Virus record (IMG/VR): IMGVR_UViG_3300049433_000053 | Span: 1-30,143 of that record | Direction: 5' to 3' (one strand) | Origin: a virus | DNA: 30,143 nucleotides | In this document: positions 7,082 through 23,677 of the stretch, piece by piece | Numbering within the stretch: position 1 is the first letter of the stretch | Layout of the letters: each line of letters opens with the position of its first letter | Translations under genes and position numbers: made by a program | Notes under the pieces: model-generated | What the model saw: the letters and a program-made list of their open reading frames with translations, nothing else | Told to the model about the DNA's origin: nothing | The model's database searches: none

Positions 7082-7714
7082 ATCAAGGCAATAGAAACTC
7101 GATATGCCGGATGCCGGTTCAGGTCCCGGCTGGAGGCACGATGGGCGGTGTTTTTCGATACGCTCGGTGTCGAATGGGAATACGAATCTCAGGGATTCGA
7201 AATTCCTGAGCGTATATTTCGAAAGCCCACTCGGTATCTCCCGGATTTCTGGCTCCCGACAATGAATGTCTATGCGGAAGTAAAAGGAACTCTGGACCAG
7301 GATTCCACTGAACGTCTCCTCAATTCGGCGGCTGTCCTGTCGTCTCCCGAAGGGGGCTGCGGAGGAGGTCATGACCTGGTGGTTCTAGGCCCGATACCCA
7401 AGGCTGAACCAGCATTTCAAGCAGTATACGGAGCAACCGATGTCCCCAGTCTTCTCCATATGCACAAAGGGGATCTCTTCGTGTCCCCCTGGAGGCAGAT
7501 CAACTACGGTAGCAATTCATGCCCGGCTTACTCGATAGAGGCATTCCGCGTAGCCAATGATGCGGAAGGCTGGGAGCCAGGATACGGTTCAGAGTGGGGA
7601 CCTGTAATTCTCAAAGGATTTACTGCGGGAACGCATCGTGTGAGTTCGGGTTCGTTCATCCGGGGATACGGGGCCGCACGGTCGGCGAGGTTCGAACATG
7701 GAGAGAGGGGCTGA
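7073..7714 (+). CDS. PD-(D/E)XK nuclease-like protein, copy 2 (AT-richer paralogue)
   Basis: 213 residues from GTG 7073, which is placed correctly behind GGAGAGAGGGG. An ATG at 7055 would start inside that ribosome site. It has the same core as copy 1: conserved Glu in R-S-R-L-E-A-R-W-A-V-F-F, PD in R-Y-L-P-D-F-W-L, and ExK in Y-A-E-V-K-G. The middle of the gene is distinctly AT-richer than all neighbours, with many A/T third bases (for example the run at 7180-7290). Its two ends keep the phage's own composition through the direct repeats. This suggests that the interior came from elsewhere and recombined in through the conserved ends. The C-terminal half differs from copy 1, so specificity may differ. 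Confidence 0.85.
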   Translation: MTEIKAIETRYAGCRFRSRLEARWAVFFDTLGVEWEYESQGFEIPERIFRKPTRYLPDFWLPTMNVYAEVKGTLDQDSTERLLNSAAVLSSPEGGCGGGHDLVVLGPIPKAEPAFQAVYGATDVPSLLHMHKGDLFVSPWRQINYGSNSCPAYSIEAFRVANDAEGWEPGYGSEWGPVILKGFTAGTHRVSSGSFIRGYGAARSARFEHGERG

Positions 7715-7724
7715 AGTGACGGAG
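7672..7724 (+). repeat. 53-bp direct repeat, copy 2 (nuclease cassette boundary)
   Basis: Second copy of the repeat described at 7029-7081. It carries the end of the copy-2 nuclease gene, the ribosome site and the GTG start of the primase-polymerase gene. Homologous exchange between the two copies would delete or add one complete nuclease gene without disturbing the neighbouring starts and stops. Confidence 0.9.
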
Positions 7725-10700
7725 CGGGAGCACGACAGGGCGCCGGAGGAATCCGGCGCTGATGTGTCTGGGGAGACGAATGGCGCGGTAGCGGCACGCG
7801 GGGTGATGGCGGAACTGGAGGAGAGCGAAGAGCGGGGCATGCGGGAGGAGCCTGCGAAGGTGACGCCTCCCCGGCCACCGGCCGACGTCTCCCCGGTGCA
7901 CCACTCCGAGCTGCTCGGGTCGGTCATCAGTGAAGAGCAGATGGCGGCACGCGGGTACCGCACGCTGTACGGATCGGAGGAGGACCAAGCAGGACTCAAG
8001 GAGATCCGCATCCCGAGGTGGGCATGGCGGGACGACACCGCGTTTCCCGGGCTGCTCATCCCGATGTACCGGGTGACCGGGGAGCGCATCGGGTACCAGT
8101 GGAAGCCCGCCACCCCGCAGGAGGCGCCGGGCGGCAAGCGGGAGAAGTACGCGAGCCAGAGCGGCACCCCCAACCGGCTGGACGTACCCCCGTCGTGCTC
8201 GGACGCGGTCCGGGACCCGAGCGTGCCCCTGTGGGTGACCGAGGGGGTGAAGAAGGCGGATGCGCTGTGCTCCAAGGGGCGCGCGGTCATCACCCTCACC
8301 GGGGTCTTCAACTGGCGGAGCAAGCTGGGCACGCTCGGGGACTGGGAAGACATCCCGCTCCGGGGCCGCACCGTCGTGGTCTGCTTTGATGCGGATGCCC
8401 GCGACAAGCGGAACGTGCTGCTCGCCATGCGGCGCCTCGGGATGTGGCTGGAGTCGAAAGGCTGCGCCGACGTCCGGTACCTGATCGTCCCGGCGGAGGT
8501 CAACGAAGTCCAGGTCAAGGGCGTCGATGACTACTTCGCTGCCGGTGGCACGATGGAAGACCTCGGGGCTGCCGCCATGCGGGAGCTGCCCGCCGACGGA
8601 GCACAGGATGCCGCGTTCAGCGATGCGGTGCTGGCGGACACGGTCTGCCGGGAGGAGCTGGACGGCCGGTTCTGCTGGGCTTCAGGTCTCGGGTGGATGA
8701 CGTGGACCGGGAAGATATGGGAGGGCGCGACCGACGCCACCGTGACGGAAGCGGTACGGCTGTGGGCGCTCGAAGCCTTCAACCGGGTGCTCGACCGGCA
8801 GCGGCAGGACCACAACCGGGACATGCGGAGTCAGATGGACGGCTGGCGCGGCGTGCTGTCGGCCGGTCGGCTCGGCGCACTGGTGCGCCTCGCGCGGGGC
8901 GTGCTGGAGTGCAAGCCGGACGACTTCGACAACGACCCCGACATGTTCAACTGCCCGAACGGCATCCTGGACCTGCGGACCGGCGAACTCCAGCCGCACG
9001 ACCCCGACCAGTTCATGACGAAGATCGCCGGGGCAGACTACGTCAAGGGGGCCACGCACCCGGACTGGGAGACGGCTCTGCTCGCGCTCCCGGAGGAAGT
9101 ACGCTCCTGGTTCCAGCTCCGGGCCGGACAGGCCATCACCGGTCACATGACCCCCGACGATCTGGCGATCATCTGCCAGGGCGGTGGAGCCAACGGGAAG
9201 AGCACAATCTCGGATGCGCTGGCGGAGGTGGCCGGGAAGTACCACGTGGTGGTGAGCGACCGGGCGATGCTCGGGGGCGCGAGCGACAACCACCCGACCG
9301 AGATGATGGACTTCATGGGCGCCCGGTACGCGGTGCTGGAGGAGACGCCGGAGAGCCGTCGGCTGGACACCAACCGGCTGAAGAAGCTCACCGGTACGAG
9401 GGAGATCACCGCCCGGCGCATCCGGCAGGACAGCGTGACGTTCGAAGCGACGCACAGCCTGTTCGTGAACAGCAACTACCGGCCGGTGGTGGACGAGACC
9501 GACCACGGCACATGGCGGCGCCTCGCGCTGGTGAGGTTCCCCTTCACCTTCCGCAAGAGCCAGGAAGAGGTCAGAGGGCCCCAGGACCGCCTAGGAGACC
9601 CGACCCTGCGCCAGAGGGTGAAGACCGACCCGCAAGTGCGCGAGGCGGTGCTTACGTGGATGGTGGGGGGTGCTCAGCGGTGGTACGACCTGTCGATGGT
9701 GATGCCCGAGCCTCCGCAGGCGGTGGCGGACGACACCAAGGCATGGCGGCTGGAGAGCGACCCCATCCTGCACTTCATCGAAGACAGCCTGATGTTCGAT
9801 CTCGACCGGCACGTGGGAGCGACCGAGCTGCGCGAGCGGTTCAACGGATCCCTGCGGGAGCGCGGCGGCAAGGAGTGGGGCGAGAAGACGTTCGCAGCCC
9901 GGTTCGGCGGTCACGACCTGACGGCTCAGAACAACGTCGAACGGCGCAAGGTGAAGCGTTCGGCCGCCCTCTCCTCGCTCCGCCCGGAGACCGTTCCGGC
10001 GGGTTCCTACTACGCCTGGCTTGGAGTCCGGTTCCAGGCGCCCGAGGAGGGATTCAGCGGTCCAGATAGCGAGACGACCCAGAATCCGTTCGGCGACGGC
10101 CCATGTAACTCTCCGGAATCGACCCCAGGTCAATCACCGGAGGCTCCCTCCGGTTCCGTCAGTTCCGTCACGTTCTTTAACGAGAATTCTCCCCATACAC
10201 GAGGGGTTATAGATCGTGACGGAACTGACGGAACCGGAGAGATTCCTCCGCTTACAGACCATGATCAAAGTGATGGGGAAACCATGATCGAAGACGCGGT
10301 GGACTTCATGTCCGCCGACCCCTTTGCCGAACCGGCCGCCCCTGTGGCGGAGGAGCTGTCCCCCGTGCCCGCAGAGGTGCCCGTGGAGTCGGGTGCGGAC
10401 CCCTCCCGTCCGAACGCTCTGACGGGCTTCGACGCATCCGGCGAAGTCGGGTTCGACCTGGAGACCGCCGACGCCAGCACGATGTTCACGTACGGGCCCG
10501 GGTTCGTCCGGATCGGCGGGCTCATCAACGAGCGGGGGGAGACGGCCACCGGTTCCGACATCAAGGCCCTGGTGGACAAGCTCAACGCCGCCGACGTGGT
10601 GTACGGCCACAACATTCTCGGATTCGACGGACTGGCCCTGGCCTACTGGCACGGTCTCGACTGGGAAGCCTTCTGCGCCAAGGCGGTCGACACCGACCCC

Positions 10701-12161
10701 CTGTCCCGGCAGGCCCACCCCCCGCGCTCCCGTGGAAAATCCTCCATCGACGAGTACGACCTGAACCACGTTGCCGCCCGTTACGGGCTGGAAGGCAAGA
10801 CCGACGACATCAAACGGCTGAAGACCAAGCACGGCGGGTACGACAAGATCCCGCTGGACGACCCCGAGTACCACGGTTACCTGGTGGGCGACGTGAGGGC
10901 TTCCCGCCACGTCCGGAAGATCCTGCCGGAGACCGACTACACCACCCGTGAGCACAAGATCGCCGCCATGATGGGCCGGATGACCCTCAACGGTTTCAAG
11001 GTGGACCGGGAGCTGCTGGACACCCGGTACCGGGAGGGGCAGGAGCGCAAGAAGGCGGCTGAGCAGGAGCTGTCCGATGCCCATGGGCTCCCGCTCGGCA
11101 GGATGGTCAATCGGGGCCGGGGTGCCGCCAAGCACCAGGTCTTCGAACCGGCCGCCTCCCCCCTGGCTACCGGCGAGGGGATCGAGTGGCTGAAGAACCT
11201 CTGGGAGCAGTACGGCGTCAACAAGCCTCCCCGCACCGAAGGTGGTCGGCTGTCGACGAAGGCGGAGCTGCTGAAGCTGGTCGCCGAACACCCCAAGTGC
11301 CCACCCGAGCTGTCTCACGTGCTCAACCTGATGGGGATCATCACCACCACCCGGACGGTCTACGCCACCACCCTGACCTACCTCGCCGCCGACGGCCGGG
11401 TGCACCCGAAGGTGTCGATGCGGCAGGCGTCCGGCCGGGCCAGCGTCACCGAACCGGGCATGACGGTCTACGGCAAGCACAATGGACGCCACCACGAACG
11501 GGAGATCTTCGTACCGGACGCCGGTGAGGTACTGATCACCTGCGACGCCAGCCAGGTCGACATGCGGGCGATCGCCGGACACTGCCAGGATCCGAACTAC
11601 ATGGCGATGTTCGCCGCAGGTCGTGACGCCCACTCCGAGATCGCTCTTCAGGTGTTCGGCTCGGCCGACTTCCGGCAGAACGCCAAGGCGATCGGTCACG
11701 GCTGGAACTACGGCCTGGGTGCACGGAAGATGATCGAAGACGGTCACGACCCCGAGCTGGTGCGCACCTTCATGAGTGGGATGGCGGAACGCTTCCCCCG
11801 GCTGATCGAGTGGCGGGAGGAGATCCGGGCACAGGGTGGCCGGGGCGAACTGCTCGACAACGGGTTCGGCCGGATGATGCGCTGTGACCCGCACTTCGCC
11901 TACACGGTGGCCACCGCCCTCATGGGTCAGGGCGGCGCACGGGATCTCGTGTTCGACGCCATGCTGAGGCTCCCGCAGAGCTACTGGAAGTATCTGCGCA
12001 CCTTCGTGCACGACGAGATCGTGATGAGCGTTCCGGCGGAGCAGGCGGATGAGGTCATGGCCCGGGTGAAGGACGCGTTCACCACGGTGTGGAGGAACGT
12101 GCCGATCCTCGCCGACACCACCGGCCCGGCCGCCAACTGGGGGGAGGCGAGTGTCAAGTGA
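7716..12161 (+). CDS. fused primase-helicase and family A DNA polymerase
   Basis: The GTG at 7716 (GGAGAGAGGGG upstream) opens an uninterrupted frame of 1481 codons. Residues about 70-290 match the DUF3854 primase-associated TOPRIM-like domain, including the P-L-W-V-T-E-G-V-K-K-A-D and V-V-V-C-F-D-A-D-A motifs. Residues about 300-770 form a D5/SF3 helicase with Walker A GGGANGKST near 488-496. After a low-GC3 linker of about 110 residues comes a polymerase I-like part with an intact 3'-5' exonuclease: exo I F-D-L-E-T, exo II N-I-L-G-F-D-G, exo III Y-L-V-G-D-V. The polymerase motifs follow: A T-C-D-A-S-Q-V-D, B R-Q-N-A-K-A-I-G-H-G-W-N-Y-G, C F-V-H-D-E-I-V. A possible internal start is ATG 10284 behind GATGGGGAAACC, so the polymerase may also be made alone. 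Since no stop separates the halves, a fusion product is expected unless the sequence carries an error. Confidence 0.9.
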   Translation: MTEREHDRAPEESGADVSGETNGAVAARGVMAELEESEERGMREEPAKVTPPRPPADVSPVHHSELLGSVISEEQMAARGYRTLYGSEEDQAGLKEIRIPRWAWRDDTAFPGLLIPMYRVTGERIGYQWKPATPQEAPGGKREKYASQSGTPNRLDVPPSCSDAVRDPSVPLWVTEGVKKADALCSKGRAVITLTGVFNWRSKLGTLGDWEDIPLRGRTVVVCFDADARDKRNVLLAMRRLGMWLESKGCADVRYLIVPAEVNEVQVKGVDDYFAAGGTMEDLGAAAMRELPADGAQDAAFSDAVLADTVCREELDGRFCWASGLGWMTWTGKIWEGATDATVTEAVRLWALEAFNRVLDRQRQDHNRDMRSQMDGWRGVLSAGRLGALVRLARGVLECKPDDFDNDPDMFNCPNGILDLRTGELQPHDPDQFMTKIAGADYVKGATHPDWETALLALPEEVRSWFQLRAGQAITGHMTPDDLAIICQGGGANGKSTISDALAEVAGKYHVVVSDRAMLGGASDNHPTEMMDFMGARYAVLEETPESRRLDTNRLKKLTGTREITARRIRQDSVTFEATHSLFVNSNYRPVVDETDHGTWRRLALVRFPFTFRKSQEEVRGPQDRLGDPTLRQRVKTDPQVREAVLTWMVGGAQRWYDLSMVMPEPPQAVADDTKAWRLESDPILHFIEDSLMFDLDRHVGATELRERFNGSLRERGGKEWGEKTFAARFGGHDLTAQNNVERRKVKRSAALSSLRPETVPAGSYYAWLGVRFQAPEEGFSGPDSETTQNPFGDGPCNSPESTPGQSPEAPSGSVSSVTFFNENSPHTRGVIDRDGTDGTGEIPPLTDHDQSDGETMIEDAVDFMSADPFAEPAAPVAEELSPVPAEVPVESGADPSRPNALTGFDASGEVGFDLETADASTMFTYGPGFVRIGGLINERGETATGSDIKALVDKLNAADVVYGHNILGFDGLALAYWHGLDWEAFCAKAVDTDPLSRQAHPPRSRGKSSIDEYDLNHVAARYGLEGKTDDIKRLKTKHGGYDKIPLDDPEYHGYLVGDVRASRHVRKILPETDYTTREHKIAAMMGRMTLNGFKVDRELLDTRYREGQERKKAAEQELSDAHGLPLGRMVNRGRGAAKHQVFEPAASPLATGEGIEWLKNLWEQYGVNKPPRTEGGRLSTKAELLKLVAEHPKCPPELSHVLNLMGIITTTRTVYATTLTYLAADGRVHPKVSMRQASGRASVTEPGMTVYGKHNGRHHEREIFVPDAGEVLITCDASQVDMRAIAGHCQDPNYMAMFAAGRDAHSEIALQVFGSADFRQNAKAIGHGWNYGLGARKMIEDGHDPELVRTFMSGMAERFPRLIEWREEIRAQGGRGELLDNGFGRMMRCDPHFAYTVATALMGQGGARDLVFDAMLRLPQSYWKYLRTFVHDEIVMSVPAEQADEVMARVKDAFTTVWRNVPILADTTGPAANWGEASVK
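10148..10239 (+). repeat. 25-bp perfect inverted repeat with tandem 9-mers in the primase-polymerase linker (possible origin or operator)
   Basis: The arms 10148-10172 and 10215-10239 are perfect reverse complements. Each arm contains two head-to-tail copies of the 9-mer GTTCCGTCA (10153-10161 and 10162-10170; inverted copies at 10217-10225 and 10226-10234). The 42-base spacer is AT-rich. It holds the palindrome GAGAATTCTC (10182-10191), a CCCC/GGGG mini-hairpin and a TATAGA hexamer at 10208-10213. Iteron-like 9-mers around an AT-rich core fit a replication origin or an operator/promoter for the polymerase part. A terminator is unlikely, as there is no T-run. Confidence 0.85.
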
Positions 12162-12370: not shown

Positions 12371-12816
12371 TGGAGCACGGGACCGGCGCAGCGGATGCCC
12401 TGCGGGGAATGCTCAACTTCGGGAAGATGATCCGGGAGACCGGCCTGCTCAGCGCGACGGAGCCCGGTCGGCGGATGATCTCCGAGGCAGCAGAGCTGCA
12501 AGACTTCCATCTCCAGATGAAGGTGGTCGGATTCCCGGACAGCCGGGTCAAGCGCGTGCTCGATCAGGAGATGAGCCGTACCGGACTCACCATGAAGGAC
12601 CGGCTGGAATCAGCCCGTACCCGGCTGCTGACCGGCGCCCCGTACGACAGCACCAACCGCCAGTTCGAGGAAATGGTGGAACGATGGTGCCGGATGCACC
12701 CGCAGGATTCCTCCGGTGATCTGAGGTGCACCCTGCTCAACCTGTACGACCTGGATGTCTTCCCCCGGGAGGTCATCCTAGCTATGAGAGAAAGTGATCT
12801 AATTGACCAGGATTGA
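12370..12816 (+). CDS. hypothetical protein
   Basis: 148 residues from ATG 12370 (GGGAGG upstream). The protein looks all-helical: ADALRGMLNFGKMIRETGLL near the N-terminus, then AAELQDFHLQMKVVGF and a C-terminal LRCTLLNLYDLDVFPREV stretch. It has two cysteines and several Arg/Lys. No named family is recognised. Its place in the chain from polymerase to the modification genes suggests middle-phase expression. Confidence 0.75.
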   Translation: MEHGTGAADALRGMLNFGKMIRETGLLSATEPGRRMISEAAELQDFHLQMKVVGFPDSRVKRVLDQEMSRTGLTMKDRLESARTRLLTGAPYDSTNRQFEEMVERWCRMHPQDSSGDLRCTLLNLYDLDVFPREVILAMRESDLIDQD

Positions 12817-13120
12817 CGATGGACTCGTGGACGTCGCCGACGGGCTGACGCTGTGCCTGCACACCGGCACAGTCGTCCCCTCGCTCGTACAACCGAAGGC
12901 GCGGTATATCCGGACGTCGGCCGCACCCGTCAAGGGCATGATCCGCCGCACCCCGGCCGGGCCGACGTACCACCGGGTGGTGTGCAGCCGGTGCGGGACG
13001 TGGGCGGTCGCCCTGTACTGGAAGCCAACCCTGCCCCCGAGGCTGCTCAGCGACCCGGCCGCCACCGGTCCTCTCACCCAGGTCTGGCAGGCCCTCACCC
13101 CCTGGAGGAAGACCTCATGA
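12803..13120 (+). CDS. small hypothetical protein with a CxxC pair (TTG start)
   Basis: 105 residues. The frame begins at TTG 12803, overlapping the previous gene by 14 bases, with GAGAGAAAG about 10 bases upstream. A later GTG at 12827 is possible but has a poorer site. A V-V-C-S-R-C-G-T-W motif near residue 60 could bind zinc. The end overlaps the ParB-like gene by ATGA. Function unknown. Confidence 0.65.
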   Translation: MTRIDDGLVDVADGLTLCLHTGTVVPSLVQPKARYIRTSAAPVKGMIRRTPAGPTYHRVVCSRCGTWAVALYWKPTLPPRLLSDPAATGPLTQVWQALTPWRKTS

Positions 13121-13815
13121 TCGAATACCTGAGCACCGAAGACGTACCCCTGGGCAATCTCACCCCGTTCCCCGGCAACGCGCGCCGGGGTGATGTGGAC
13201 GCCATCGCTGAGTCGATCGAGCGCAACGGCCAGTACCGGTCGCTGATCGTCCGCCGGGTCCCGGCCGGGTCCCTGGTCGTGCTCGCCGGGAACCACACGA
13301 TGGCGGCCCTGTCCAAGCTCGGCCGGGAGACGGCACGCTGCGAGCTGATCGACTGCGACGACGACACCGCCCGCCGGGTCAACCTGGTCGACAACCGGCT
13401 GCCGGACGCCGGGGGGTACGAGGATGAGGCGCTGGCGGCCCTGCTCGGGGCGCTGGACGACTTCACCGGTACCGGGTACGTACCCGACGACCTGGACGAC
13501 CTGCTGGCCCGGATCGGCGACATCCCTGAGATGGTGGAGCAGCCGACCGAAGCCCGGTACGCCGAAACCCCGGAGGAGGCGGAGGCACGGCGCGAGAAGA
13601 TCGACAGCTACGAGCCCCGGCAGACCCCGCAGGGAGGTACGGCAGTCGAGCTGATCGCGGTGATGCCGGTTCCCGATCACCAGGAGGCGACCGCCCTCAT
13701 CCGCTCGATCAGGGATCGGGACGGGCAGGATCTCACCGCAGGGCAGATCATTCTGTACGCGCTCCGGAACCACGCCGGAGTCGTTCCTGACGAAAACGAG
13801 GAAAGCGATGACTGA
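13117..13815 (+). CDS. ParB/Srx-like (ParB N-terminal domain) protein
   Basis: 232 residues from ATG 13117 (GGAGG eight bases upstream). The first 90 residues follow the ParB-N/sulfiredoxin fold: L-G-N-L-T-P-F-P-G-N-A-R-R-G-D-V, then I-A-E-S-I-E-R-N-G-Q-Y-R-S-L-I-V-R, then V-L-A-G-N-H-T-M-A-A-L, the signature G-N-H positions. ParB-N proteins bind nucleotides and DNA, and in phages many act as nucleases or modification cofactors. The C-terminal part is acidic. It lies just upstream of the base-modification genes in one overlapping chain, so a role in targeting or regulating modification is possible. There is no partner ParA and no parS-like palindrome in the window, so segregation is unlikely. 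Confidence 0.8.
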   Translation: MIEYLSTEDVPLGNLTPFPGNARRGDVDAIAESIERNGQYRSLIVRRVPAGSLVVLAGNHTMAALSKLGRETARCELIDCDDDTARRVNLVDNRLPDAGGYEDEALAALLGALDDFTGTGYVPDDLDDLLARIGDIPEMVEQPTEARYAETPEEAEARREKIDSYEPRQTPQGGTAVELIAVMPVPDHQEATALIRSIRDRDGQDLTAGQIILYALRNHAGVVPDENEESDD

Positions 13816-14050
13816 GGCCAAGAGCAGCACACCGGCCAAGAAGACCGCCGTATTCGCCAAGTCCAAGCACGACGCGACCGTGAACCGTGAGCCCAACCCC
13901 GTACCCGAACAGGGCGGCCGGGTCGTGGCCCGGTGCTCGTGCGGCTGGACCGCGTCCGACCAGTACACCCGCGACCGATTCGAGCCATCGGTGCGCGCCG
14001 TGGTCCAGGAGGCGGCCGACCGCCACGAGAAGGAACCGGAGACCGACTGA
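13808..14050 (+). CDS. small basic protein with a CSCGW motif
   Basis: 80 residues from ATG 13808, preceded by GAGGAAAG. It has a Lys-rich N-terminus (SSTPAKKTAVFAKSKHD), a V-V-A-R-C-S-C-G-W-T motif in the middle and a helical C-terminus. The C-S-C-G-W stretch is a frequent small zinc-like motif in actinobacterial proteins. Family unknown. It overlaps the ParB-like gene by 8 bases. Confidence 0.7.
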   Translation: MTEAKSSTPAKKTAVFAKSKHDATVNREPNPVPEQGGRVVARCSCGWTASDQYTRDRFEPSVRAVVQEAADRHEKEPETD

Positions 14051-14316
14051 TGCCCATTCTGTTCTGGATCATCGATATCTCGGCACTGTTCTGCACGGCC
14101 GGGGTGTTCACCGGGTATTTCGTGGACCGGCATTACATGAAGACCCGGCCGCACCTGTTCGGGCCCCGGCTGTACGGACCGAGCTGGCTGCCGTACCTCG
14201 GGTTCTTCCGTCCGTACATCCGGCGGGTCCGGGCGTTCCATGACCGGATCGACCAGGAGGATGCCCGCTACCTCCGGGGCGAGGGGTACGACGTCGTCAT
14301 ACGGGGTCGGCGGTGA
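14050..14316 (+). CDS. small single-span membrane protein
   Basis: 88 residues from ATG 14050. Residues 3-24 (ILFWIIDISALFCTAGVFTG) form one hydrophobic span, followed by a basic cytosolic-type tail with many Arg. The gene overlaps its neighbours by single bases or GTGA. It may dock a modification or replication protein at the membrane, but nothing in the sequence shows this. Confidence 0.7.
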   Translation: MPILFWIIDISALFCTAGVFTGYFVDRHYMKTRPHLFGPRLYGPSWLPYLGFFRPYIRRVRAFHDRIDQEDARYLRGEGYDVVIRGRR

Positions 14317-15203
14317 ACGATCTGTGGGCCGACTACACCCAGTTCCACGGACTGATGGTGGAGAGCCAGGATCTCGACCCGGTGTACCCCGTGTACAAGC
14401 GTCTGGCCGAGGGTCTCAACCTCAGCCGGGCCGACCGGGTGTGGCTCGTGCTCGCGCACGTCGCCTACTACCACGCGGGGAGCGCCCTGGTCGCGTTCTC
14501 CGGGGCGAACGGACTGCGGGATGCGGGAACGTCCAGGCTCGATCTCCCGTGTTCCACAGAGCGCCGTGGGCACCGCTCCCCGGCTGCCCTGTCGGCGCAC
14601 CTGAACGATCTGTCCCGCCGGGCTGACGAAATCTTTGCCTGGTGCGTCGAGACGTCCTACATGGAACCGGAGACCGGCTGGAACTACCTCACCGACCGGC
14701 TGGAGACGATCCACGGCAACGGCCGGTGGGCCGCGTACAAGACAGCCGAGATGCTTCAGCACGTCTACCCTCTGGGGATCGAGGCGCCGGACATGGGCCA
14801 CGCCTTCAGCTCCGGTCCGAGGAAGGGTCTCGCGCTGCTGTACGAAGACGACCTGCCGACCGGCAACGATGCCCTGTCGGTGAAGCATCTCGACTCCCTG
14901 AGCCGAGAAGTCGTCAGCCACCTGAACTACCGGGTGGGGGTCCGGATGGCCACGATGGCAACCGCAGAGACGTCGCTGTGCGACTTCCACAGCCTGGTTG
15001 AGGGCCGGTACTACGTCGGCCGGGACATCGATCAGATGCAGGCGCAGCTCACGGCCGTGCCGAGCGGGCTCACCCGGCAGGTGTGGAAGGCACGCCGCCA
15101 GACTCTCCCCAACCAGTACCTCGGAGAGCTGTACGGCTGGAAAGGCGTCGACACGGCGCGCAGCCGGATGTACCGGGACACAGGAAAGATCGTGGAGAGA
15201 TGA
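14313..15203 (+). CDS. amino acid:DNA transferase (alpha-glutamyl/putrescinyl thymine pyrophosphorylase type)
   Basis: 296 residues starting at GTG 14313 (GTGA overlap). The protein has the all-helical, HhH-glycosylase-like pattern of the aGPT-PPlase superfamily. Landmarks are an N-terminal D-Y-T-Q-F-H-G-L segment, an H-G-N-G-R-W-A-A-Y-K-T-A-E motif at about 134-146, and E-T-S-L-C-D-F-H followed by G-R-Y-Y-V-G-R-D-I-D-Q near 219-241. In characterised phage pathways such enzymes displace a phosphoester on hydroxymethyl-pyrimidine in DNA with the amine of a free amino acid. The neighbouring kinase and dioxygenase would supply that activated base. My family call rests on remembered motif spacing, so a profile search should confirm it. 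Coupling to the FAD enzyme (ATGA) is tight. Confidence 0.75.
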   Translation: MNDLWADYTQFHGLMVESQDLDPVYPVYKRLAEGLNLSRADRVWLVLAHVAYYHAGSALVAFSGANGLRDAGTSRLDLPCSTERRGHRSPAALSAHLNDLSRRADEIFAWCVETSYMEPETGWNYLTDRLETIHGNGRWAAYKTAEMLQHVYPLGIEAPDMGHAFSSGPRKGLALLYEDDLPTGNDALSVKHLDSLSREVVSHLNYRVGVRMATMATAETSLCDFHSLVEGRYYVGRDIDQMQAQLTAVPSGLTRQVWKARRQTLPNQYLGELYGWKGVDTARSRMYRDTGKIVER

Positions 15204-16036
15204 AGATCCTCGTTGCAGGAGCGGGTATCGCCGGTAGCTGTGCGGCCCACGTACTGCGGGACGCCGGTCACGACGTCGTGCTCGCCGACCCGGCGCCGGA
15301 CACGGCCGCCAGCCGGTGCGCGTTCGCGCTGACCCGGATCGCCTGGTGGTCGGGAGCTCCGAAGATCCGGGTGGTCCGGTCGCTGAACTGGTACCAGGCA
15401 CGTGGCCACATCGTCACGTCGTCCGCCACCGTGCACGACGTCCGCCGACAACGCACGACGATCCAGGGCGACCACTACCTGATCAGTCCCACCGGCCCGC
15501 TCGTCCCGCGCGATCTCGCCGCCTCGGTCGGCTGGTGGGATGAGCGGGCTGACGGTGTGCTCGTGGATTTTCGGCACTGGATACGCGAGCAGTACGACGC
15601 GCTGGTGGTCGCCGCCGGGCCCGCGTCGGCCGGACTGCTGTCGTGGCCTGCCGACGGGTGCAGCTACGGCGGCATCCACACCGCACCGGGCAACCTGCTC
15701 ACCGACGGCGGTCAGCTCGCACTGCTCCGGCGCACCGACCGGCTGAGCTACACGGCTGCCTTCGTCGCCGGGGAGACGCGCATCGGAGCCTCGCGCTGCT
15801 CCTCACCGGAGCAGGCACACCGCGTCGCCGACGGCATCCGGGACCGGCTGCTGTCCGAAGGTCTCGTCAAGGGAGCCGACTGGGCGTACCGGTCCGGCAC
15901 CCGCTACGCCACGGCATCCCCCGGCGCTGTACGGATCTCGCGCCGGGTATGGTCGCTCACCGGACTGGCACGGTCCGGGTACGCACTCGCTCCGGCCGCC
16001 GCGCTGGACATCGAAAAGGAGATCAGAGAGCTGTGA
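15200..16036 (+). CDS. FAD-dependent oxidoreductase/lyase of the amino acid oxidase fold
   Basis: 278 residues from ATG 15200. The N-terminus is a Rossmann fold with a G-A-G-I-A-G dinucleotide motif at residues 7-12 and an acidic residue closing the second strand (VVLADPAP). A second FAD-binding region appears as D-A-L-V-V-A-A-G-P near 130-140, and the C-terminus has the VWSLTGLARSGYALAPAAAL pattern of DAO-type flavoproteins. It is short for this family. In phage thymidine hypermodification, flavin-dependent lyases trim an amino acid attached to the base. This one sits between the transferase and the kinase, so that role is likely. A free amino acid oxidase is the main alternative. Confidence 0.8.
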   Translation: MKILVAGAGIAGSCAAHVLRDAGHDVVLADPAPDTAASRCAFALTRIAWWSGAPKIRVVRSLNWYQARGHIVTSSATVHDVRRQRTTIQGDHYLISPTGPLVPRDLAASVGWWDERADGVLVDFRHWIREQYDALVVAAGPASAGLLSWPADGCSYGGIHTAPGNLLTDGGQLALLRRTDRLSYTAAFVAGETRIGASRCSSPEQAHRVADGIRDRLLSEGLVKGADWAYRSGTRYATASPGAVRISRRVWSLTGLARSGYALAPAAALDIEKEIREL

Positions 16037-16608
16037 CCAAGCACCTCGTATACCTGGTGGGCCCGCCCGGAGTCGGCAAGTCGAGCGTGATGGCTGAGCT
16101 GACAGCCGGGCTGCACCGGGTCCCGTACAAAGACGGTCAGCTCAAGTACGACGGGCTGTACAAGACGCACGCGCCCCCACAGACGGCCACCCCGGTCGGT
16201 GTCGAGCTGGGGGCGCGCCGCGACTCGTTCAGTGGCACCGATGCACTCGGCATGGCGGTGCAGCCGCACGCCGTGGAATGGATCGGCCGGGCGACCTGTC
16301 CCCTGGTGCTCGGGGAAGGTGCGCGCCTGGGTAATGCCGGGTTCCTGCACGCCGCCCGGTCCGCTGGATACACGCTGCACCTCGTGCATCTGTCCGCCGA
16401 TCCGCACACCCTCGCTGCCCGGCGCTTCCAGCGTGGCAGCAAGCAGTCGGAGGTGTGGATCCGGGGAGCGGAGACGCGCGCACAGCGCATCATGGAGCGG
16501 ATGGAGCTGGACGCGATCCTGCATTACCTCCACACGGACCATTTCACGTCGGAGGAGATCGCTATCACGCTGGTTGACCTCATCCCATCCCTGGAGGTAC
16601 TGCGGTGA
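16033..16608 (+). CDS. P-loop kinase acting on hydroxymethyl-pyrimidine DNA (5-hmdU DNA kinase-like)
   Basis: 191 residues from GTG 16033 (GTGA overlap). The Walker A motif G-P-P-G-V-G-K-S lies at residues 10-17. It is followed by a basic, Tyr-containing stretch and then the G-T-D-A-L-G-M-A-V-Q-P-H motif that I associate with the DNA-nucleotide kinases of hypermodification clusters. A later L-G-E-G-A-R-L-G-N-A-G-F strand and Arg-rich lid (A-A-R-R-F-Q-R-G) complete the fold. The predicted reaction is ATP-dependent phosphorylation of the hydroxymethyl group on a base in DNA, creating the leaving group for the transferase. A small nucleoside kinase is an alternative, but the gene neighbours argue for DNA as substrate. 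Confidence 0.8.
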   Translation: MTKHLVYLVGPPGVGKSSVMAELTAGLHRVPYKDGQLKYDGLYKTHAPPQTATPVGVELGARRDSFSGTDALGMAVQPHAVEWIGRATCPLVLGEGARLGNAGFLHAARSAGYTLHLVHLSADPHTLAARRFQRGSKQSEVWIRGAETRAQRIMERMELDAILHYLHTDHFTSEEIAITLVDLIPSLEVLR

Positions 16609-17477
16609 TCGAGATGAGGCTGCGCCGCCGGTCGGCCCCGGCGGAGCTGGAGGCGAAGCAGGGGAAGATCCTCGGTCCCTCCGACTACAACCTGCTGCTC
16701 ACTGGTCCGGCGTACGTACGGATGCCGGACAACCGGCCGCTCTGCGTGTACCTGCCGGGCGTGCTCACCGGCGAACTCGACAAGCCGGGCATCTACGAGA
16801 TCCTGTCCGGTATGCGCGCGATCTCGAAGAACCGGGGGCTGGCGTCCGGGTCCCCGCGCCTGCGCACCCGGCATCCCGGCCGGACGTACGCCCGTGAGGT
16901 GGCGTCCACGATCGTCGGGGCGGTCGACCCGATCGGTCAGACGCGCTACTGCCGCCTCACCGCCTGGACCGGTCGCAACCTCCCGCAGTGGGAACAGCTC
17001 ATCCCTCTCCTCCAGGCCGTAGCCGAGAAGCAGCGGCAGTATGTCAACGATCGGGCGATGGCTCAACAGGCTGTCGCCGATTCCGCTGACCCGGCGTGGG
17101 TCGTACCGGGTACGCCGTTCTCCACGATCACCGTCAACAACACATATCCGACCGGCGTGCACACCGACAAGGGCGATCTGGACGCCGGATTCTCCGCCAT
17201 CGCTGTGATCCGGCGCGGCTCGTACACGGGCGGACACCTCGTGTTCCCGGAGTACCGCGTGGCGGTCGACATGTACCACGGCGATCTTCTGCTGATGGAC
17301 GCGCACCAGTGGCACGGCAACACCGCGCTGGTGTGCGCCTGTGGCCGGGAACCGAACGGTGCATGCTCGGAGTGCGGTACGGAAAGGATCTCGATCGTGA
17401 GCTATTTCAGGTCCAAAGTCGCCGACTGCGGCACCCCTGACCAGGAGATCCGCCGGGCGAACGCCAACCGTATCTAG
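16605..17477 (+). CDS. TET/JBP-family Fe(II)/2-oxoglutarate dioxygenase
   Basis: 290 residues from GTG 16605 (overlapping the kinase stop). The double-stranded beta-helix motif is clear: N-N-T-Y-P-T-G-V-H-T-D-K-G-D places the metal ligands His186 and Asp188. The G-G-H-L-V-F-P-E-Y strand and D-A-H-Q-W-H-G-N-T supply the distal His237, and R261 in R-I-S-I-V-S-Y-F is positioned to bind 2-oxoglutarate. The H-T-D...H-G-N pattern is that of TET/JBP DNA base hydroxylases. Between the distal His and the Arg is a four-Cys insert (C-A-C then C-S-E-C), probably a zinc site. The likely substrate is thymine or 5-methylcytosine in the phage DNA. Which one cannot be told from sequence, and no cytosine methyltransferase is visible in this window. 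Confidence 0.85.
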   Translation: MIEMRLRRRSAPAELEAKQGKILGPSDYNLLLTGPAYVRMPDNRPLCVYLPGVLTGELDKPGIYEILSGMRAISKNRGLASGSPRLRTRHPGRTYAREVASTIVGAVDPIGQTRYCRLTAWTGRNLPQWEQLIPLLQAVAEKQRQYVNDRAMAQQAVADSADPAWVVPGTPFSTITVNNTYPTGVHTDKGDLDAGFSAIAVIRRGSYTGGHLVFPEYRVAVDMYHGDLLLMDAHQWHGNTALVCACGREPNGACSECGTERISIVSYFRSKVADCGTPDQEIRRANANRI

Positions 17478-17503
17478 TCAGTTACGAGACAAGGATCGTT
17501 ACG

Positions 17504-18022
17504 ATGACTGCTTCAGAGGGGGACCGCCTGCGGATTGAAGAACGGCGCCGGAAAGTCGTTCAGCTCCGCCTCGCAGGGGTCAAGTCGGAAGAGATCGTTC
17601 GGCAGCTCGCCGACTACTACGGGCCGGATGCCGACAGCGCTCTGGCCCGTGTCGACTGGCAGCGTGCCCGGGAAGCGAGCAAGCGGCTCACCGACGAATC
17701 CGTGGAAGAGCTCCGGGATATCCAGTCTGACCGGCTGGAACGGCTGCTGGTCGGTGTGTGGACGAAGGCGCTGAAGGGCGACATCAAGGCGGTCGATTCG
17801 GCGGCCCGGCTGATCGAGCGGATATGCAAGCTGCGGGGCCTCGATCCGCCGACTCAGGTCCAGCTCTCCGCCCGGATCGAGATGGAGTCCACGGCAGTCG
17901 CCGAAGCGGTCATCGCAGCGATCGACTCCCTGGGGTTCACGCCCGAGGTGCGGATGAAGGCGTTGGAGGCTGCGCAGGTGCGGCTGACGGCGATCGCCGA
18001 ACAGCGGGAAGAGATCGCCTGA
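17504..18022 (+). CDS. small HTH protein, terminase-small-subunit-like
   Basis: 172 residues from ATG 17504, with AAGGATC about 10 bases upstream. Residues 8-55 form an HTH-like region (ERRRKVVQLRLAGVKSEEIV). The rest is helical with the motif RLERLLVGVWTKALKGDIKA, then AARLIERICKLRGLDPP. Many actinophage proteins of this shape are annotated as HTH proteins or terminase small subunits, and a TerL gene lies 3.4 kb downstream. I favour a small-terminase or DNA-recognition role, without proof. A strong terminator follows. Confidence 0.65.
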   Translation: MTASEGDRLRIEERRRKVVQLRLAGVKSEEIVRQLADYYGPDADSALARVDWQRAREASKRLTDESVEELRDIQSDRLERLLVGVWTKALKGDIKAVDSAARLIERICKLRGLDPPTQVQLSARIEMESTAVAEAVIAAIDSLGFTPEVRMKALEAAQVRLTAIAEQREEIA

Positions 18023-18038: not shown

Positions 18039-18733
<695 letters not shown>

Positions 18734-20184: not shown

Positions 20185-21243
20185 GTGGAAAGCAGCTTTG
20201 AAGGTAAACGGATTCTGCTAACGGGTGCTGCGGGGTTTGTAGGCAGCCACGTGCTGCGCCACCTGCTGAAACGGACTAAGGCCGAAATAGTATGTCCGGT
20301 TACGTTCCGCCACAAAGGCTTCCCAGCCCGGATCATCAGCGCGGCAGAGGGGATCGAGATCGACGGCGGCGCACCGGCACGCGTCACCGTGATGATGATG
20401 GATCTCACAGCGCCCGCAGACCCGATCTCGATCAGCCGCATGGGCCACATCGACTACATCCTCAACGTGGCCAGTGAGTCGCACGTGGACCGCTCGATCA
20501 CCGACCCGGTTCCGTTCGTGATGAACAACACGGCGCTGATCCTGAATACCCTGGAGCTGGCCCGCGTGCTCCGGCCGGATGTCTTCCTCCAGATGTCTAC
20601 GGATGAGGTCTACGGCCCGGCCCCCATGGGCTACAGCCATCGGGAGTGGGACCCGATCTGCCCCTCCAACCCGTACAGCGCGAGCAAGGCCGCGCAGGAG
20701 GCCATCGCTATCTCGTACTGGCGCACGTACGGCGTCCCGGTCGTGATCACCAACACCATGAACATCATCGGCGAGATGCAAGACGTCGAAAAGATGGTGC
20801 CGAAGACGATCAAGCTGCTCACCAACGGGGAGCCGGTGCCGGTGCACTGCGATACCGATGGCTCACCGGGGAGCCGGTTCTACCTGCACGCGCGCAACCT
20901 CGCCGACGCTTGGCTGTTCCTGCTCCGGCAGGAAGGCAAGCTATGGGACCTGAACATGCACGTGGACGGCTCCGGCCGCCCGTCCCGCTTCAACATCGTC
21001 GGTGAACAGGAAGTCGACAACATCACCCTCGTGAAGCAGGTAGCGAGGATCATGGGCGTGATGCCCCGGTACGAGAAGCAGAGTTTTCACGCGTCCCGGC
21101 CGGGCCACGATCTCCGGTACGCGCTGGACGGGTCCCGGATGGCCAAGCTCGGGGTCAACGGCTGGCACCCGCCGTTCCCGTTCGATTCGTCCCTGGAGAC
21201 GACCGTGCGGTGGACGCTCGACCACCCGGAGTGGCTTCAGTGA
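20185..21243 (+). CDS. NAD-dependent epimerase/dehydratase (extended SDR, RmlB-like)
   Basis: 352 residues from GTG 20185, GGAGGAAG upstream. The Rossmann motif T-G-A-A-G-F-V-G-S-H contains GxxGxxG (Gly14, 17, 20). The active site has M-S-T-D-E-V-Y-G and the Y-S-A-S-K-A-A-Q motif (YxxxK), the signature of dTDP-glucose 4,6-dehydratases and related nucleotide-sugar enzymes. It would act on a nucleotide-linked sugar. In a phage this could alter the host cell surface or supply a modified sugar, and no glycosyltransferase is in the window to say which. It overlaps the next gene by GTGA. Confidence 0.9.
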   Translation: MESSFEGKRILLTGAAGFVGSHVLRHLLKRTKAEIVCPVTFRHKGFPARIISAAEGIEIDGGAPARVTVMMMDLTAPADPISISRMGHIDYILNVASESHVDRSITDPVPFVMNNTALILNTLELARVLRPDVFLQMSTDEVYGPAPMGYSHREWDPICPSNPYSASKAAQEAIAISYWRTYGVPVVITNTMNIIGEMQDVEKMVPKTIKLLTNGEPVPVHCDTDGSPGSRFYLHARNLADAWLFLLRQEGKLWDLNMHVDGSGRPSRFNIVGEQEVDNITLVKQVARIMGVMPRYEKQSFHASRPGHDLRYALDGSRMAKLGVNGWHPPFPFDSSLETTVRWTLDHPEWLQ

Positions 21244-21442: not shown

Positions 21443-23677
21443 ATGACCACCGATGCGCAGCAGATCGCCAAGCAGGCTGCCGATCTGCTGCGCATGTACG
21501 GTGAGTCGGCCGGACGCTGGGCACCGCGTCCGCACCAGATCCCTCCCCCGTCCGGGTTCTACGGCTGGCTGCTGATGGCGGGGCGCGGCGCCGGTAAGAC
21601 GGACGCCTGCGCTAAGTACGTCGTGGACCACGTCAAGGGTCCGGCCTGCCTCAAGGGCGACACCCCTCACTGGATCGGGATCATCGCCCCCACCCTCGGC
21701 GATGCAGCCACCTCGTGCTTCTCCGGTCCGTCCGGGATCAAGGCGCACGACCCGTCCGCCAAGATGGTGAACACGATCGGCGGCACGATCATCCGGTGGC
21801 CGAACGGCAGTGAGGCGAAGCTGTTCGGCGCCAACACCGAAGAGGACACCCAGCGTCTCCGGTCCGGCGGTAACCGTTGTGTTGTTGAGGGCACGATGGT
21901 GCGTACTGCACGAGGGGAAGTTCCCATTGAGGAAGTAGTCCCCGGGGACAGGGTGTGGACTCGGAACGGCCTGCGTAAGGTGCTCAAGGTCTGGGATAAC
22001 GGGATCAAGGAAGTACGCCGATACGATCACGAAGCTGGATCGACTTGGATGACTCCGGATCACCAGGTGTGGACTGATCGGGGGTGGGAACAAGCCTCGC
22101 TTGTCTCGACAAGCGATACAGTGTTTACATGGCCGACTTCATCGAATATGACGGTGCTCGCTGGTATCCGAACAAGCGCGATCCCTACTACCGCAACAGT
22201 CGTAGAGGACTACTGCATCGATGGATGTATCTGCGCGAAGTCGGACCGATACCTGGCAGAGCGCAAGTCCACCACCGGAACCACGACAAGCGTGACAACC
22301 GTGTGGAAAACTTCGTGCTTCTCTCCCCCGGAGACCATTGGCACGAACACGGTACGGAGCGAGGCGACGACTGGCACAGCAAAGGTGGTCGTGCGACGTG
22401 GGCCAGCGCGGAGTACCGCGATTTCACCTGTGAGCGGTGCGGCGCATCGTTCCGTTCCCGAGGTACGACAGGGGCCCGGTACTGCTCCCCCCATTGTCGT
22501 GAGGCGTCGGCTCCTTCACGGGCACGGGAAGAACGGGTGTGTTGCGTGTGCGGCGCACGGTTCGAATCCCAGAAACGGTCTTCGACACGTACCTGTTCAC
22601 GGCGGTGCACTTCGGTCGTCGCATACGAGTCGCGTCGCAAGGGTGTATGACCTCACGGTCGAGCATGATCACGAGTTCTTCGCTGACGGGCTGCTCGTTT
22701 CCAATTGCCTGCAATGGCTGGAGGAGATCGCCGCGTGGCGGTATCTCGACTACGCCTGGAACCAGATGCGGTTCGGCCTGCGCGTCGGCCCGCATCCGCA
22801 CTGGATCGGCTCCACCACCCCCAAGCCCCGGCAGCTCATCAAACGGCTGGACCGGGGCGATATCGCCAACGTCGTCATCACCCGCGCGACCATGTACGAC
22901 AACCCCCACCTGCCCGCCGACATCCGGGAAGCGCTGGAGGAGGAGTACGGCGGTACCCAGCTCGGCCGTCAGGAACTGCTCGGCCAGCTCATTGATGAGG
23001 ATGAGCAAGCTCTCTGGAACCACCGCACGATCGATGCGGCCCGCGTCCCCAAGAAAGACCTGCCGGAGTTCGGCCGGATCTCCGTCGGGGTGGACCCGTC
23101 CGGCGGTGCCGGTGAGCAGGGCATCGTGGTCGCCGCCCGGTCCAAGCTCATCCTGCCGCCGACCGTGATGCCCGAGGTGGAGGGGATCGAGATCCCGGGG
23201 TCCGACCGGCCGAACAAGCACGGGTACGTGCTGGACGACCGCACCGTCCACCTGTCCCCCGACGGATGGGGCAAGGCCGCGATCCTGGCCGCTGTGGACT
23301 GGGAGGCTGACGAGATCTTCGTGGAGACGAACTACGGCGGGGCCATGTGCGTGTCGACGCTCCGCACGGCGGCCGAAATCAAGGGAGTCAACATCCCGAT
23401 CAAGGTCGTCACCGCCACCCGGGGCAAGAAGGTTCGGGCGGAGCCGGTCAGCGCGCTCACGAGCCAGGGCCGCTGGCACCACGCCGGTACCTTCGAAGCG
23501 CTGGAGGACCAGATGTGCACGTGGCACGATGACCTCGGCTGGAGCCCCGACCGGCTGGACGCGGCGGTGTGGAACGGGTGGGGGCTGCGCCTCGCGCACC
23601 TGCTGTCCGGCGGTCAGGGCTCGATCGGCGGGGGCGCCATGTCCAAGAAGATCACGCCAGGACGGGGTGCCTACTGA
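21443..23677 (+). CDS. terminase large subunit (TerL) interrupted by an intein
   Basis: 744 codons from ATG 21443. N-extein: Walker A (A-G-R-G-A-G-K-T) near residues 48-54. The intein spans residues 146-421. The C-extein begins C-L-Q-W-L-E-E-I-A-A-W, where the acidic pair is the Walker B/catalytic Glu of the packaging ATPase. The nuclease domain follows: V-G-V-D-P-S-G-G (first metal aspartate), F-V-E-T-N-Y-G-G (glutamate) and D-R-L-D-A-A-V-W (last aspartate). Splicing would give a 468-residue TerL, normal length for this family. It translocates and cuts phage DNA at the portal. Its ribosome site is weak (GAGAGA), perhaps compensated by coupling to the preceding gene. Confidence 0.95.
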   Translation: MTTDAQQIAKQAADLLRMYGESAGRWAPRPHQIPPPSGFYGWLLMAGRGAGKTDACAKYVVDHVKGPACLKGDTPHWIGIIAPTLGDAATSCFSGPSGIKAHDPSAKMVNTIGGTIIRWPNGSEAKLFGANTEEDTQRLRSGGNRCVVEGTMVRTARGEVPIEEVVPGDRVWTRNGLRKVLKVWDNGIKEVRRYDHEAGSTWMTPDHQVWTDRGWEQASLVSTSDTVFTWPTSSNMTVLAGIRTSAIPTTATVVEDYCIDGCICAKSDRYLAERKSTTGTTTSVTTVWKTSCFSPPETIGTNTVRSEATTGTAKVVVRRGPARSTAISPVSGAAHRSVPEVRQGPGTAPPIVVRRRLLHGHGKNGCVACAAHGSNPRNGLRHVPVHGGALRSSHTSRVARVYDLTVEHDHEFFADGLLVSNCLQWLEEIAAWRYLDYAWNQMRFGLRVGPHPHWIGSTTPKPRQLIKRLDRGDIANVVITRATMYDNPHLPADIREALEEEYGGTQLGRQELLGQLIDEDEQALWNHRTIDAARVPKKDLPEFGRISVGVDPSGGAGEQGIVVAARSKLILPPTVMPEVEGIEIPGSDRPNKHGYVLDDRTVHLSPDGWGKAAILAAVDWEADEIFVETNYGGAMCVSTLRTAAEIKGVNIPIKVVTATRGKKVRAEPVSALTSQGRWHHAGTFEALEDQMCTWHDDLGWSPDRLDAAVWNGWGLRLAHLLSGGQGSIGGGAMSKKITPGRGAY
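22098..22115 (+). repeat. 8-bp hairpin before the nested HNH gene
   Basis: CGCTTGTC (22098-22105) and GACAAGCG (22108-22115) form a perfect hairpin with a 2-base loop that ends 13 bases before the HNH start codon. It lies inside the intein coding region. It may control HNH translation or mark the edge of the inserted gene. Confidence 0.6.
22129..22650 (+). CDS. HNH homing endonuclease nested out of frame inside the TerL intein
   Basis: 173 residues from ATG 22129, in a frame one base behind the intein frame. HNH core: P-I-P-G-R-A-Q-V-H-H-R-N-H-D-K-R-D-N at residues 41-57 and P-G-D-H-W-H near 67-72, the His-Asn-His geometry. Two zinc fingers follow (C-E-R-C ... C-S-P-H-C, then C-C-V-C ... C-S-R-R-C), probable DNA-binding modules of mobile endonucleases. 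The stop (22648-22650) lies inside the codons for the first residues of the intein's C-terminal block. There is no clear ribosome site; a hairpin precedes it. It probably drives homing of the intein. Confidence 0.85.
   Translation: MADFIEYDGARWYPNKRDPYYRNSRRGLLHRWMYLREVGPIPGRAQVHHRNHDKRDNRVENFVLLSPGDHWHEHGTERGDDWHSKGGRATWASAEYRDFTCERCGASFRSRGTTGARYCSPHCREASAPSRAREERVCCVCGARFESQKRSSTRTCSRRCTSVVAYESRRKGV

Follow-up and report, generated by a model that had tools for sequence, protein, structure and literature searches.

A four-gene operon with TET entry as a probable DNA hypermodification pathway in an IMG/VR virus record

In this study, we analysed the virus record IMGVR_UViG_3300049433_000053, assigned here to a virus of soil bacteria, over its complete length of 30,143 bases (hereafter the window); the record is classed as linear, so it may, as is often the case, be a fragment. 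Near its middle, four + strand open reading frames (ORFs) lie at exactly 14313-15203, 15200-16036, 16033-16608 and 16605-17477. They encode, in this order, an amino acid:DNA transferase (ADDT/AADT), a DAO-fold enzyme using flavin adenine dinucleotide (FAD) that is predicted to be an Nα-glycinyl-pyrimidine lyase, a P-loop kinase predicted to phosphorylate a hydroxymethyl base in DNA, and a TET/JBP Fe(II)/2-oxoglutarate dioxygenase whose base-reading position is occupied by Asp191. Each junction is a four-base overlap (ATGA at 15200, GTGA at 16033 and 16605), exactly as described in a first-pass annotation made from the letters of the DNA, and the four family assignments proposed there all score above the Pfam cut-offs. 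It is very likely that these four coupled genes form a DNA hypermodification operon in which a base would be hydroxylated, phosphorylated, joined to an amino acid and trimmed.

The unit begins upstream of the transferase. The GTG start of the transferase at 14313 overlaps the stop codon of a gene for an 88-aa hydrophobic protein (14050..14316, +), for which neither a Pfam nor a PHROG family match was found. This gene is abutted by one for an 80-aa protein with a CxCxW stretch (13808..14050, +; weak match to phrog_5419 at 0.0066, zero matches in Pfam), which overlaps a gene for a ParB-like protein (13117..13815, +; phrog_723, E 4.8e-46; Pfam ParB_N 0.0021, below cut-off), a possible DNA-targeting partner. 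A ParB-like ORF is present in 52 of the 55 distinct transferase and TET loci that have more than 1 kb upstream, a count made with a profile that contained gp1 of Mycobacterium phage Phelemich, unproven as ParB; with the profile rebuilt without this protein it is 53/55. In locus L005 a comparable small ORF, judged by eye, follows ParB. The ParB-like gene and the two small overlapping genes, which run gaplessly into the operon, are also part of the unit. The span given in the first-pass annotation for a four-gene unit was right and its extent was too narrow.

Conservation of the set goes well beyond what chance would give. A TET search returned 61 IMG/VR loci with best-segment identities of 45-74%, and profile searches returned 38 loci for the FAD enzyme and 73 for the transferase. 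Transferase counts given here exclude the loci of phages M6 and phiW-14 (L075, L076), matches below 40 bits and loci that repeat the last 120 transferase residues of another. All four genes are carried on one strand by 47 distinct loci, window included, which rules out a system unique to this record. Their order follows the type of TET, assigned by the better-scoring profile: transferase-FAD enzyme-kinase-TET (ADDT-DAO-KIN-TET) in 21/21 loci with the TET type of the window, and TET-ADDT-DAO-KIN in 26/26 loci with the other type. Within the sequence fetched, a TET accompanies the transferase in 75 of 81 distinct loci; of the remaining six, two (L146, L170) come from contigs that end close to the operon and four (L116, L117, L179, L181) are divergent, three of these having an M6-type kinase match. 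By transferase, L004 is closest to the window (66%), and among the twelve first-round sets the window, L004 and L011 have four-base overlaps at all three junctions. Some of these relatives are redundant: the TET ORFs are identical in four locus pairs (L017/L018, L026/L030, L050/L051 and L040/L042), and Phelemich and Mycobacterium phage Reprobate are near copies. Megablast gave zero matches for positions 12500-17600 against phages and for the operon against plasmids. One bacterial contig, Streptomyces africanus contig 59 (L079), holds a window-type set; therefore, actinobacteria are plausible hosts.

The transferase matches Pfam ADDT (PF18724) at 2.3e-19 (70.5 bits, cut-off 26.2) and phrog_6364 at 7.1e-35. 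M6 gp51 belongs to the same PHROG and to PF18724, and its kinship with the window protein reaches an hhalign probability of 98.6%; the Phelemich homologue has a weak pairwise match to phiW-14 gp109 (3e-4). A 12-sequence transferase profile found 25qc (5.4e-19) and the glycinyltransferase 8z2m (9.5e-6) in the PDB. The FAD enzyme matches Pfam DAO (PF01266) at 6.6e-8 (32.9 bits, cut-off 27.9), and its profile finds the flavin-dependent lyases 8z2o and 8z79 as best PDB matches over residues 3-274 (1e-9), at 20-21% identity to the solved lyase. Its structural model (mean predicted local distance difference test, pLDDT, 86.6) has as its top three Foldseek matches the 5-N-alpha-glycinylthymidine FAD-dependent lyase gp47/NGTO of a Pseudomonas phage, with template modelling (TM) scores of 0.74-0.76. 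The source is presumably phage PaMx11, the PDB title ending at 'Pa'. With this as its nearest solved relative by full-length profile and by fold, the window FAD enzyme is predicted to be a lyase of the Nα-glycinylthymidine (Nα-GlyT) type.

Several observations weigh against a lyase. Glycine oxidase comes next in the FAD profile search (9.4e-9, residues 3-43 only), renalase stands close behind the lyase by E-value in the fold search, and other, general DAO-fold enzymes also score near it. Four of 11 aligned FAD relatives form a visible subgroup just 28-30% identical to the window protein, and in 26 of the 81 distinct transferase loci a kinase and a TET were present but no FAD match. The FAD enzyme might then act as an oxidase or a dehydrogenase and serve a different purpose, and the product might be another amino-acid-derived base, e.g., a retained Nα-aminoacyl-thymidine. 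We regard this as rather improbable: it is the lyase that gives the full-length profile match and the top fold rank, and the FAD gene lies directly 3' of the transferase gene with a four-base overlap in 8 of the 12 first-round sets, window included, as computed from start codons picked by script.

The kinase matches Pfam Ploopntkinase3 (PF18751) at 5.4e-31 (108 bits, cut-off 27) and phrog_800 at 1.5e-15, the PHROG to which M6 gp54 also belongs, and its Walker A residues G10, G15 and K16 are unchanged across 23 sequences. Other results count against a role like that of gp54. PF18748, the family of the 5-hydroxymethyldeoxyuridine (5hmdU) DNA kinase HMUDK, is absent among the 16 matches of the window kinase at E 0.1, whereas gp54 matches it at 7.7e-18. 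An hhalign comparison of the window kinase reached 63% with gp54 alone and 82% with four such sequences, which is a weak comparison. Against the PDB, the kinase profile gave 49 matches at E 0.1, nearly all of them restricted to the Walker A region. The placement of transferase and kinase in the hypermodification families, on which the first-pass annotation had relied, held for both in the PHROGs shared with M6, but not for the Pfam family of the kinase. In addition, kinase relatives, which come from mycobacteriophages in 362 of 389 phage records, occur in Crownjwl (L187, 1-567) and in PenguinLover67 (L072, 4032-4589, adjoining preQ0 genes), and a TET match was found in neither; therefore, another role is possible there. 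'Terminase small subunit' and 'adenylate kinase' were set aside as kinase roles, being record labels. The label 'terminase small subunit' of phrog_800 is itself misleading: this PHROG matches P-loop kinases including M6 gp54. The same is true of 'queuine tRNA-ribosyltransferase' for phrog_6059, which matches TET/JBP proteins of Phelemich and of Rhodococcus phage Tonitrus.

Kinase and TET could also form a separate pair, making, e.g., phosphorylated or glycosylated hydroxymethyl bases, with the transferase and FAD genes as passengers. In the sequence fetched for the named phages Terij and Ottawa and for L025/L026, TET adjoins a kinase and no transferase is present, and other loci (some similar ones judged by eye) pair TET with different partners: a window-type TET stands with a same-family transferase, a pyridoxal phosphate (PLP) enzyme and a kinase in L005, with a radical SAM/SPASM protein and without a kinase in L024, and with a TET-associated glycosyltransferase in L033. 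We consider such a pair very improbable in the window, as the order is fixed in 47/47 four-gene loci and TET accompanies the transferase as often as stated above. Further variants of the set were seen. LilMcDreamy, with the other TET type, has an Asp/Arg hydroxylase-like gene in the place of the FAD gene. In L035, which has a window-type TET, the set has a low-molecular-weight (LMW) phosphatase-like protein inserted between transferase and FAD enzyme (by Pfam; in L027 by eye), together with a longer TET ORF. L027 (7311-8584), L029 (7177-8046) and L035 (7203-8512) form a subgroup with an amidoligase-like protein, a weak match (0.012) for which L035 alone was tested.

The TET protein matches Pfam Tet_JBP (PF12851) at 1.9e-16 (60.2 bits, cut-off 34.9). 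The triad H186, D188 and H237 singled out in the first-pass annotation is unchanged in 45 aligned TET sequences, window included, and the model (mean pLDDT 92.2) has a TET fold, its nearest folds being CcTet, TET2 and NgTET1 (best E 2e-12, 1e-11 and 1.5e-11); a search of the TET profile against PDB sequences gave zero matches at E 1. The two types differ three residues beyond the Asp that binds iron, at position 191 of the window TET: this residue is Asp in 71/71 distinct window-type TETs covering the position and Asn in 47/47 of the other phage type (hereafter Asn-type). In the column of R269, Asn-type TETs have Leu (46/47) or Val (1/47), either a real change or a shifted alignment. We speak of types rather than clades because a quick, crudely rooted tree of 119 TETs did not recover the Asn-type as a single clade. 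The TETs of Phelemich and of Microbacterium phage Kozie stay below the Pfam cut-off (22 and 25 bits vs 34.9).

The thymidylate-synthase family (PF00303) includes hydroxymethylases that make hydroxymethyl nucleotides. According to passages in PMC6449724, the scheme proposed for phages M6, ViI and phiW-14 is replication from a 5hmdUTP pool, followed by the action of a 5hmdU DNA kinase and, after it, of transferases. PF00303 and the C5-methyltransferase family PF00145 were searched in 46 TET-bearing records (the window, L064 and 44 of the 61 loci from the TET search) and in 49 more selected by transferase or FAD enzyme; PF12851 was searched in these 49 and in 12 named phages, and TET presence in the 46 was taken from the earlier locus searches. 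PF00303 was found in 0/46 TET-bearing records, window included. Among the 49, it was found in 0/44 with TET and in 3/5 without (P = 0.0005 by count). Of the 12 named phages, nine carry TET without PF00303, two (M6 and phiW-14) carry PF00303 without TET, and PenguinLover67 lacks both. In sum, PF00303 occurs in 0/99 records with TET vs 5/8 without, Crownjwl (kinase, no TET match) being left out. As the first-pass annotation had proposed, TET seems to replace the nucleotide-pool hydroxymethylase. This complementarity is strong but non-independent evidence, and three points reduce its weight: it is partly confounded with lineage because the TET-less records are divergent in the transferase; many of the records are fragments and some are near copies; and genes absent from the window could lie elsewhere because the window is itself a 30-kb fragment.

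From these data, a pathway of four steps can be proposed. TET/JBP would hydroxylate a base of the phage DNA at its 5-methyl group, most likely thymine to give 5-hydroxymethyluracil, and the P-loop kinase would phosphorylate the resulting hydroxyl. The transferase would then replace the phosphate with an amino acid joined through its amino group, most likely glycine because of the kinship of the FAD enzyme and the weaker transferase match to the glycinyltransferase 8z2m, yielding Nα-glycinylthymidine. Finally, the FAD enzyme would oxidatively trim the glycine to 5-aminomethyl-deoxyuridine, the likely product in view of the solved Nα-GlyT lyase to which this enzyme is closest; the same relative lends support to the aminomethyl-type product suggested in the first-pass annotation. 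The ParB-like protein may have the role of bringing the enzymes to their sites on DNA. The conserved operon thus probably encodes an Nα-glycinylthymidine/aminomethyl pathway with TET entry, whose product is probably a known base. The reading in full, a post-replicative pyrimidine hypermodification operon of an actinobacterial-type phage that acts on thymine and ends in an aminomethyl product, is what we consider likely on balance, judging from family membership by sequence and fold, the conserved order of the genes and the complementarity of TET and PF00303.

The choice of the base needs separate consideration. Thymine is moderately favoured over 5-methylcytosine (5mC) as the predicted substrate, and the points on its side are the kinship with thymidine enzymes and the complementarity of TET and PF00303. 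Moreover, no PF00145 C5-methyltransferase was found in 9/9 named complete TET genomes. Phage systems combining a C5-methyltransferase with TET, and hence acting on 5mC, exist. The same four steps could run on cytosine, from 5mC made by a phage or host C5-methyltransferase through 5-hydroxymethylcytosine (5hmC) and Nα-glycinyl-5-methylcytosine to 5-aminomethylcytosine. This is unlikely, yet it is the alternative with most on its side. Asp191 of the window TET occupies the position at which, according to passages in PMC7854593, Asp or Asn reads N4 of 5mC (Asp350 in CMD1, Asp234 in NgTET1, Asn1387 in TET2). The same passages state that docking of CMD1 gave no good bond between thymine O4 and this Asp, and that an Asp-to-Asn change in CMD1 gave no thymine activity. 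NgTET1, which has Asp too, oxidises T far less than 5mC (a passage in PMC9584883, citing Pais et al.). The Asp that is uniform in the window type, against Asn in the other, has in these enzymes a structural precedent for reading N4 of 5mC, which would suit cytosine. Asn at this position is also compatible with 5mC, as in TET2, so that the residue proves no split, and the Asn-type TET accompanies the same transferase-FAD-kinase set.

The distribution of C5-methyltransferases is likewise divided. The window yielded no C5-methyltransferase. PF00145 matches were found in 5/46 records (one below cut-off) and in 2/49, the latter two being short records with Asn-type TET (G047, G048), contrary to a restriction to the window type. 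L004, the relative nearest by transferase, has a C5-methyltransferase-like gene, below the Pfam cut-off, about 1.5 kb upstream of ParB, and this gene has relatives in two further records, one of which had not been among the earlier matches. Altogether, 6/15 window-type TET records of at least 50 kb carry a C5-methyltransferase-like gene; with two complete named genomes added, the comparison is 6/17 vs 0/11 for the other type (4 IMG/VR, 7 named), about 0.03 one-sided, or 0.06 without the match to the L004 query, which was unsought in the other type. The count was made post hoc, includes near copies and does not hold for short records, and it is biased because the L004 query was run on a separate set of 49 records, nearly all of them with window-type TETs. 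One of the six records is possibly a Streptomyces contig, whose genes may be those of the host. No C5-methyltransferase was detected in the other 9/15 large window-type records, nor in the complete genomes of HTVC112P and Nonlabens phage P12024L, and the relatives of transferase and lyase with known chemistry work on thymidine derivatives. It is tempting to speculate that phage TETs feed one tailoring line from two bases, the Asn-type from thymine and the Asp-type of the window from 5mC, giving 5-aminomethyl-deoxycytidine here without a modified nucleotide pool; we think this doubtful. To our knowledge, 5-aminomethyl-deoxycytidine is a DNA base in no organism, and it is the substrate, T or 5mC, that decides whether the base would be new. 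The first-pass annotation had seen in the enzyme set and the TET entry a good candidate for an undescribed modification. This could not be upheld, as 5-aminomethyluracil is counted among natural phage bases (a passage in PMC11550810), the set occurs in named phages, and a combination of TET, transferase and kinase has already been called a thymidine system.

Other genes of the window were also inspected. The gene at 20185-21243 (+), between the operon and the large terminase gene, is dTDP-glucose 4,6-dehydratase-like (below the NCBIfam cut-off; Pfam Epimerase above its own); as a pathway member it was set aside, with evidence neither way. The large terminase gene (21443-23677, +) contains an intein-like insert, with Hint_2 at 146-186 and Intein_splicing at 394-421 (below cut-off), followed by terminase domains at 424-710, and several named relatives of this terminase match in two pieces. 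At 7698-12161 (+) a single protein of 1487 residues fuses DUF3854, a D5-type primase/helicase and a family A DNA polymerase, whereas the best named relatives listed have primase and polymerase as separate genes. The gene at 18143-18733 (+) encodes a PF06737 transglycosylase-like domain, which we take to be Rpf-like, together with LysM.

A modified base of this kind could help to hide phage DNA from bacterial defences. If the proposed thymine pathway is true, phages have two unrelated ways of gaining M6-like amino bases, through the nucleotide pool or by oxidation on DNA. Since TET entry needs no modified nucleotide pool, the module could move between phages with few genes, which fits a gene set that recurs in two fixed arrangements, each with its own TET type. 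The set is carried by cultured phages growing on Mycobacterium smegmatis, so that the prediction is open to a direct check, and the Asp/Asn difference makes the base choice of TET accessible by point mutant.

Related systems have been considered before. Iyer et al. (2013) reportedly predicted modifications starting from TET/JBP-made hydroxymethylpyrimidines, and Lee et al. (2018, 2022), Wen et al. (2024) and Burke et al. (2021) are said to describe hypermodification enzymes, the work of Wen et al. concerning, by its title, the biosynthesis of Nα-GlyT and 5-NmdU. Among the open-literature matches listed, none pairs TET entry with a FAD lyase or gives the base in such a phage. HTVC112P and P12024L have TETs among the nearest in named phages (29 and 32%), with Asp at the same position; P12024L differs in having a glycosyltransferase (PF20691) after TET, and the 10 kb fetched from it gave no kinase, transferase or FAD match. 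Rhodococcus phage Tonitrus and Gordonia phage Wooper share with the window ParB, a Tet-like J-binding protein, an aGPT-Pplase2 protein and a kinase, the GenBank record of Wooper (OP910132) listing Tet-like J-binding protein, aGPT-Pplase2 and 5-hmU DNA kinase. Tonitrus differs by its Asn-type TET, and the further gene of the system (gp8 in Tonitrus, gp5 in LittleMunchkin) has no FAD family match. For Tonitrus, ParB, a TET-like protein, aGPT-Pplase2, a kinase and one unknown component have been described as possibly forming a system for thymidine hypermodification (a passage in PMC11955845).

Phelemich and Kozie come closer, with the four enzymes adjacent and the terminase after them, and Reprobate has transferase and FAD matches at the Phelemich positions; gene 1 of Phelemich is ParB-like by the custom profile and not by Pfam. 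In their annotation, these proteins are labelled hypothetical, oxidoreductase or adenylate kinase in Phelemich and hypothetical in Kozie. Both phages differ from the window in the order TET-ADDT-DAO-kinase and in their Asn-type TET. Finally, the window shares its transferase families with gp51 and phrog_800 with gp54 of M6, a phage whose DNA contains 5-(2-aminoethyl)deoxyuridine (a passage in PMC6449724), and its FAD enzyme has the Pseudomonas phage lyase gp47/NGTO as nearest solved structure. It departs from M6 in a kinase of PF18751 instead of PF18748, and from M6/ViI-type pathways in general by a predicted entry through TET on DNA, not through a thymidylate-synthase-family hydroxymethylase acting on the nucleotide.

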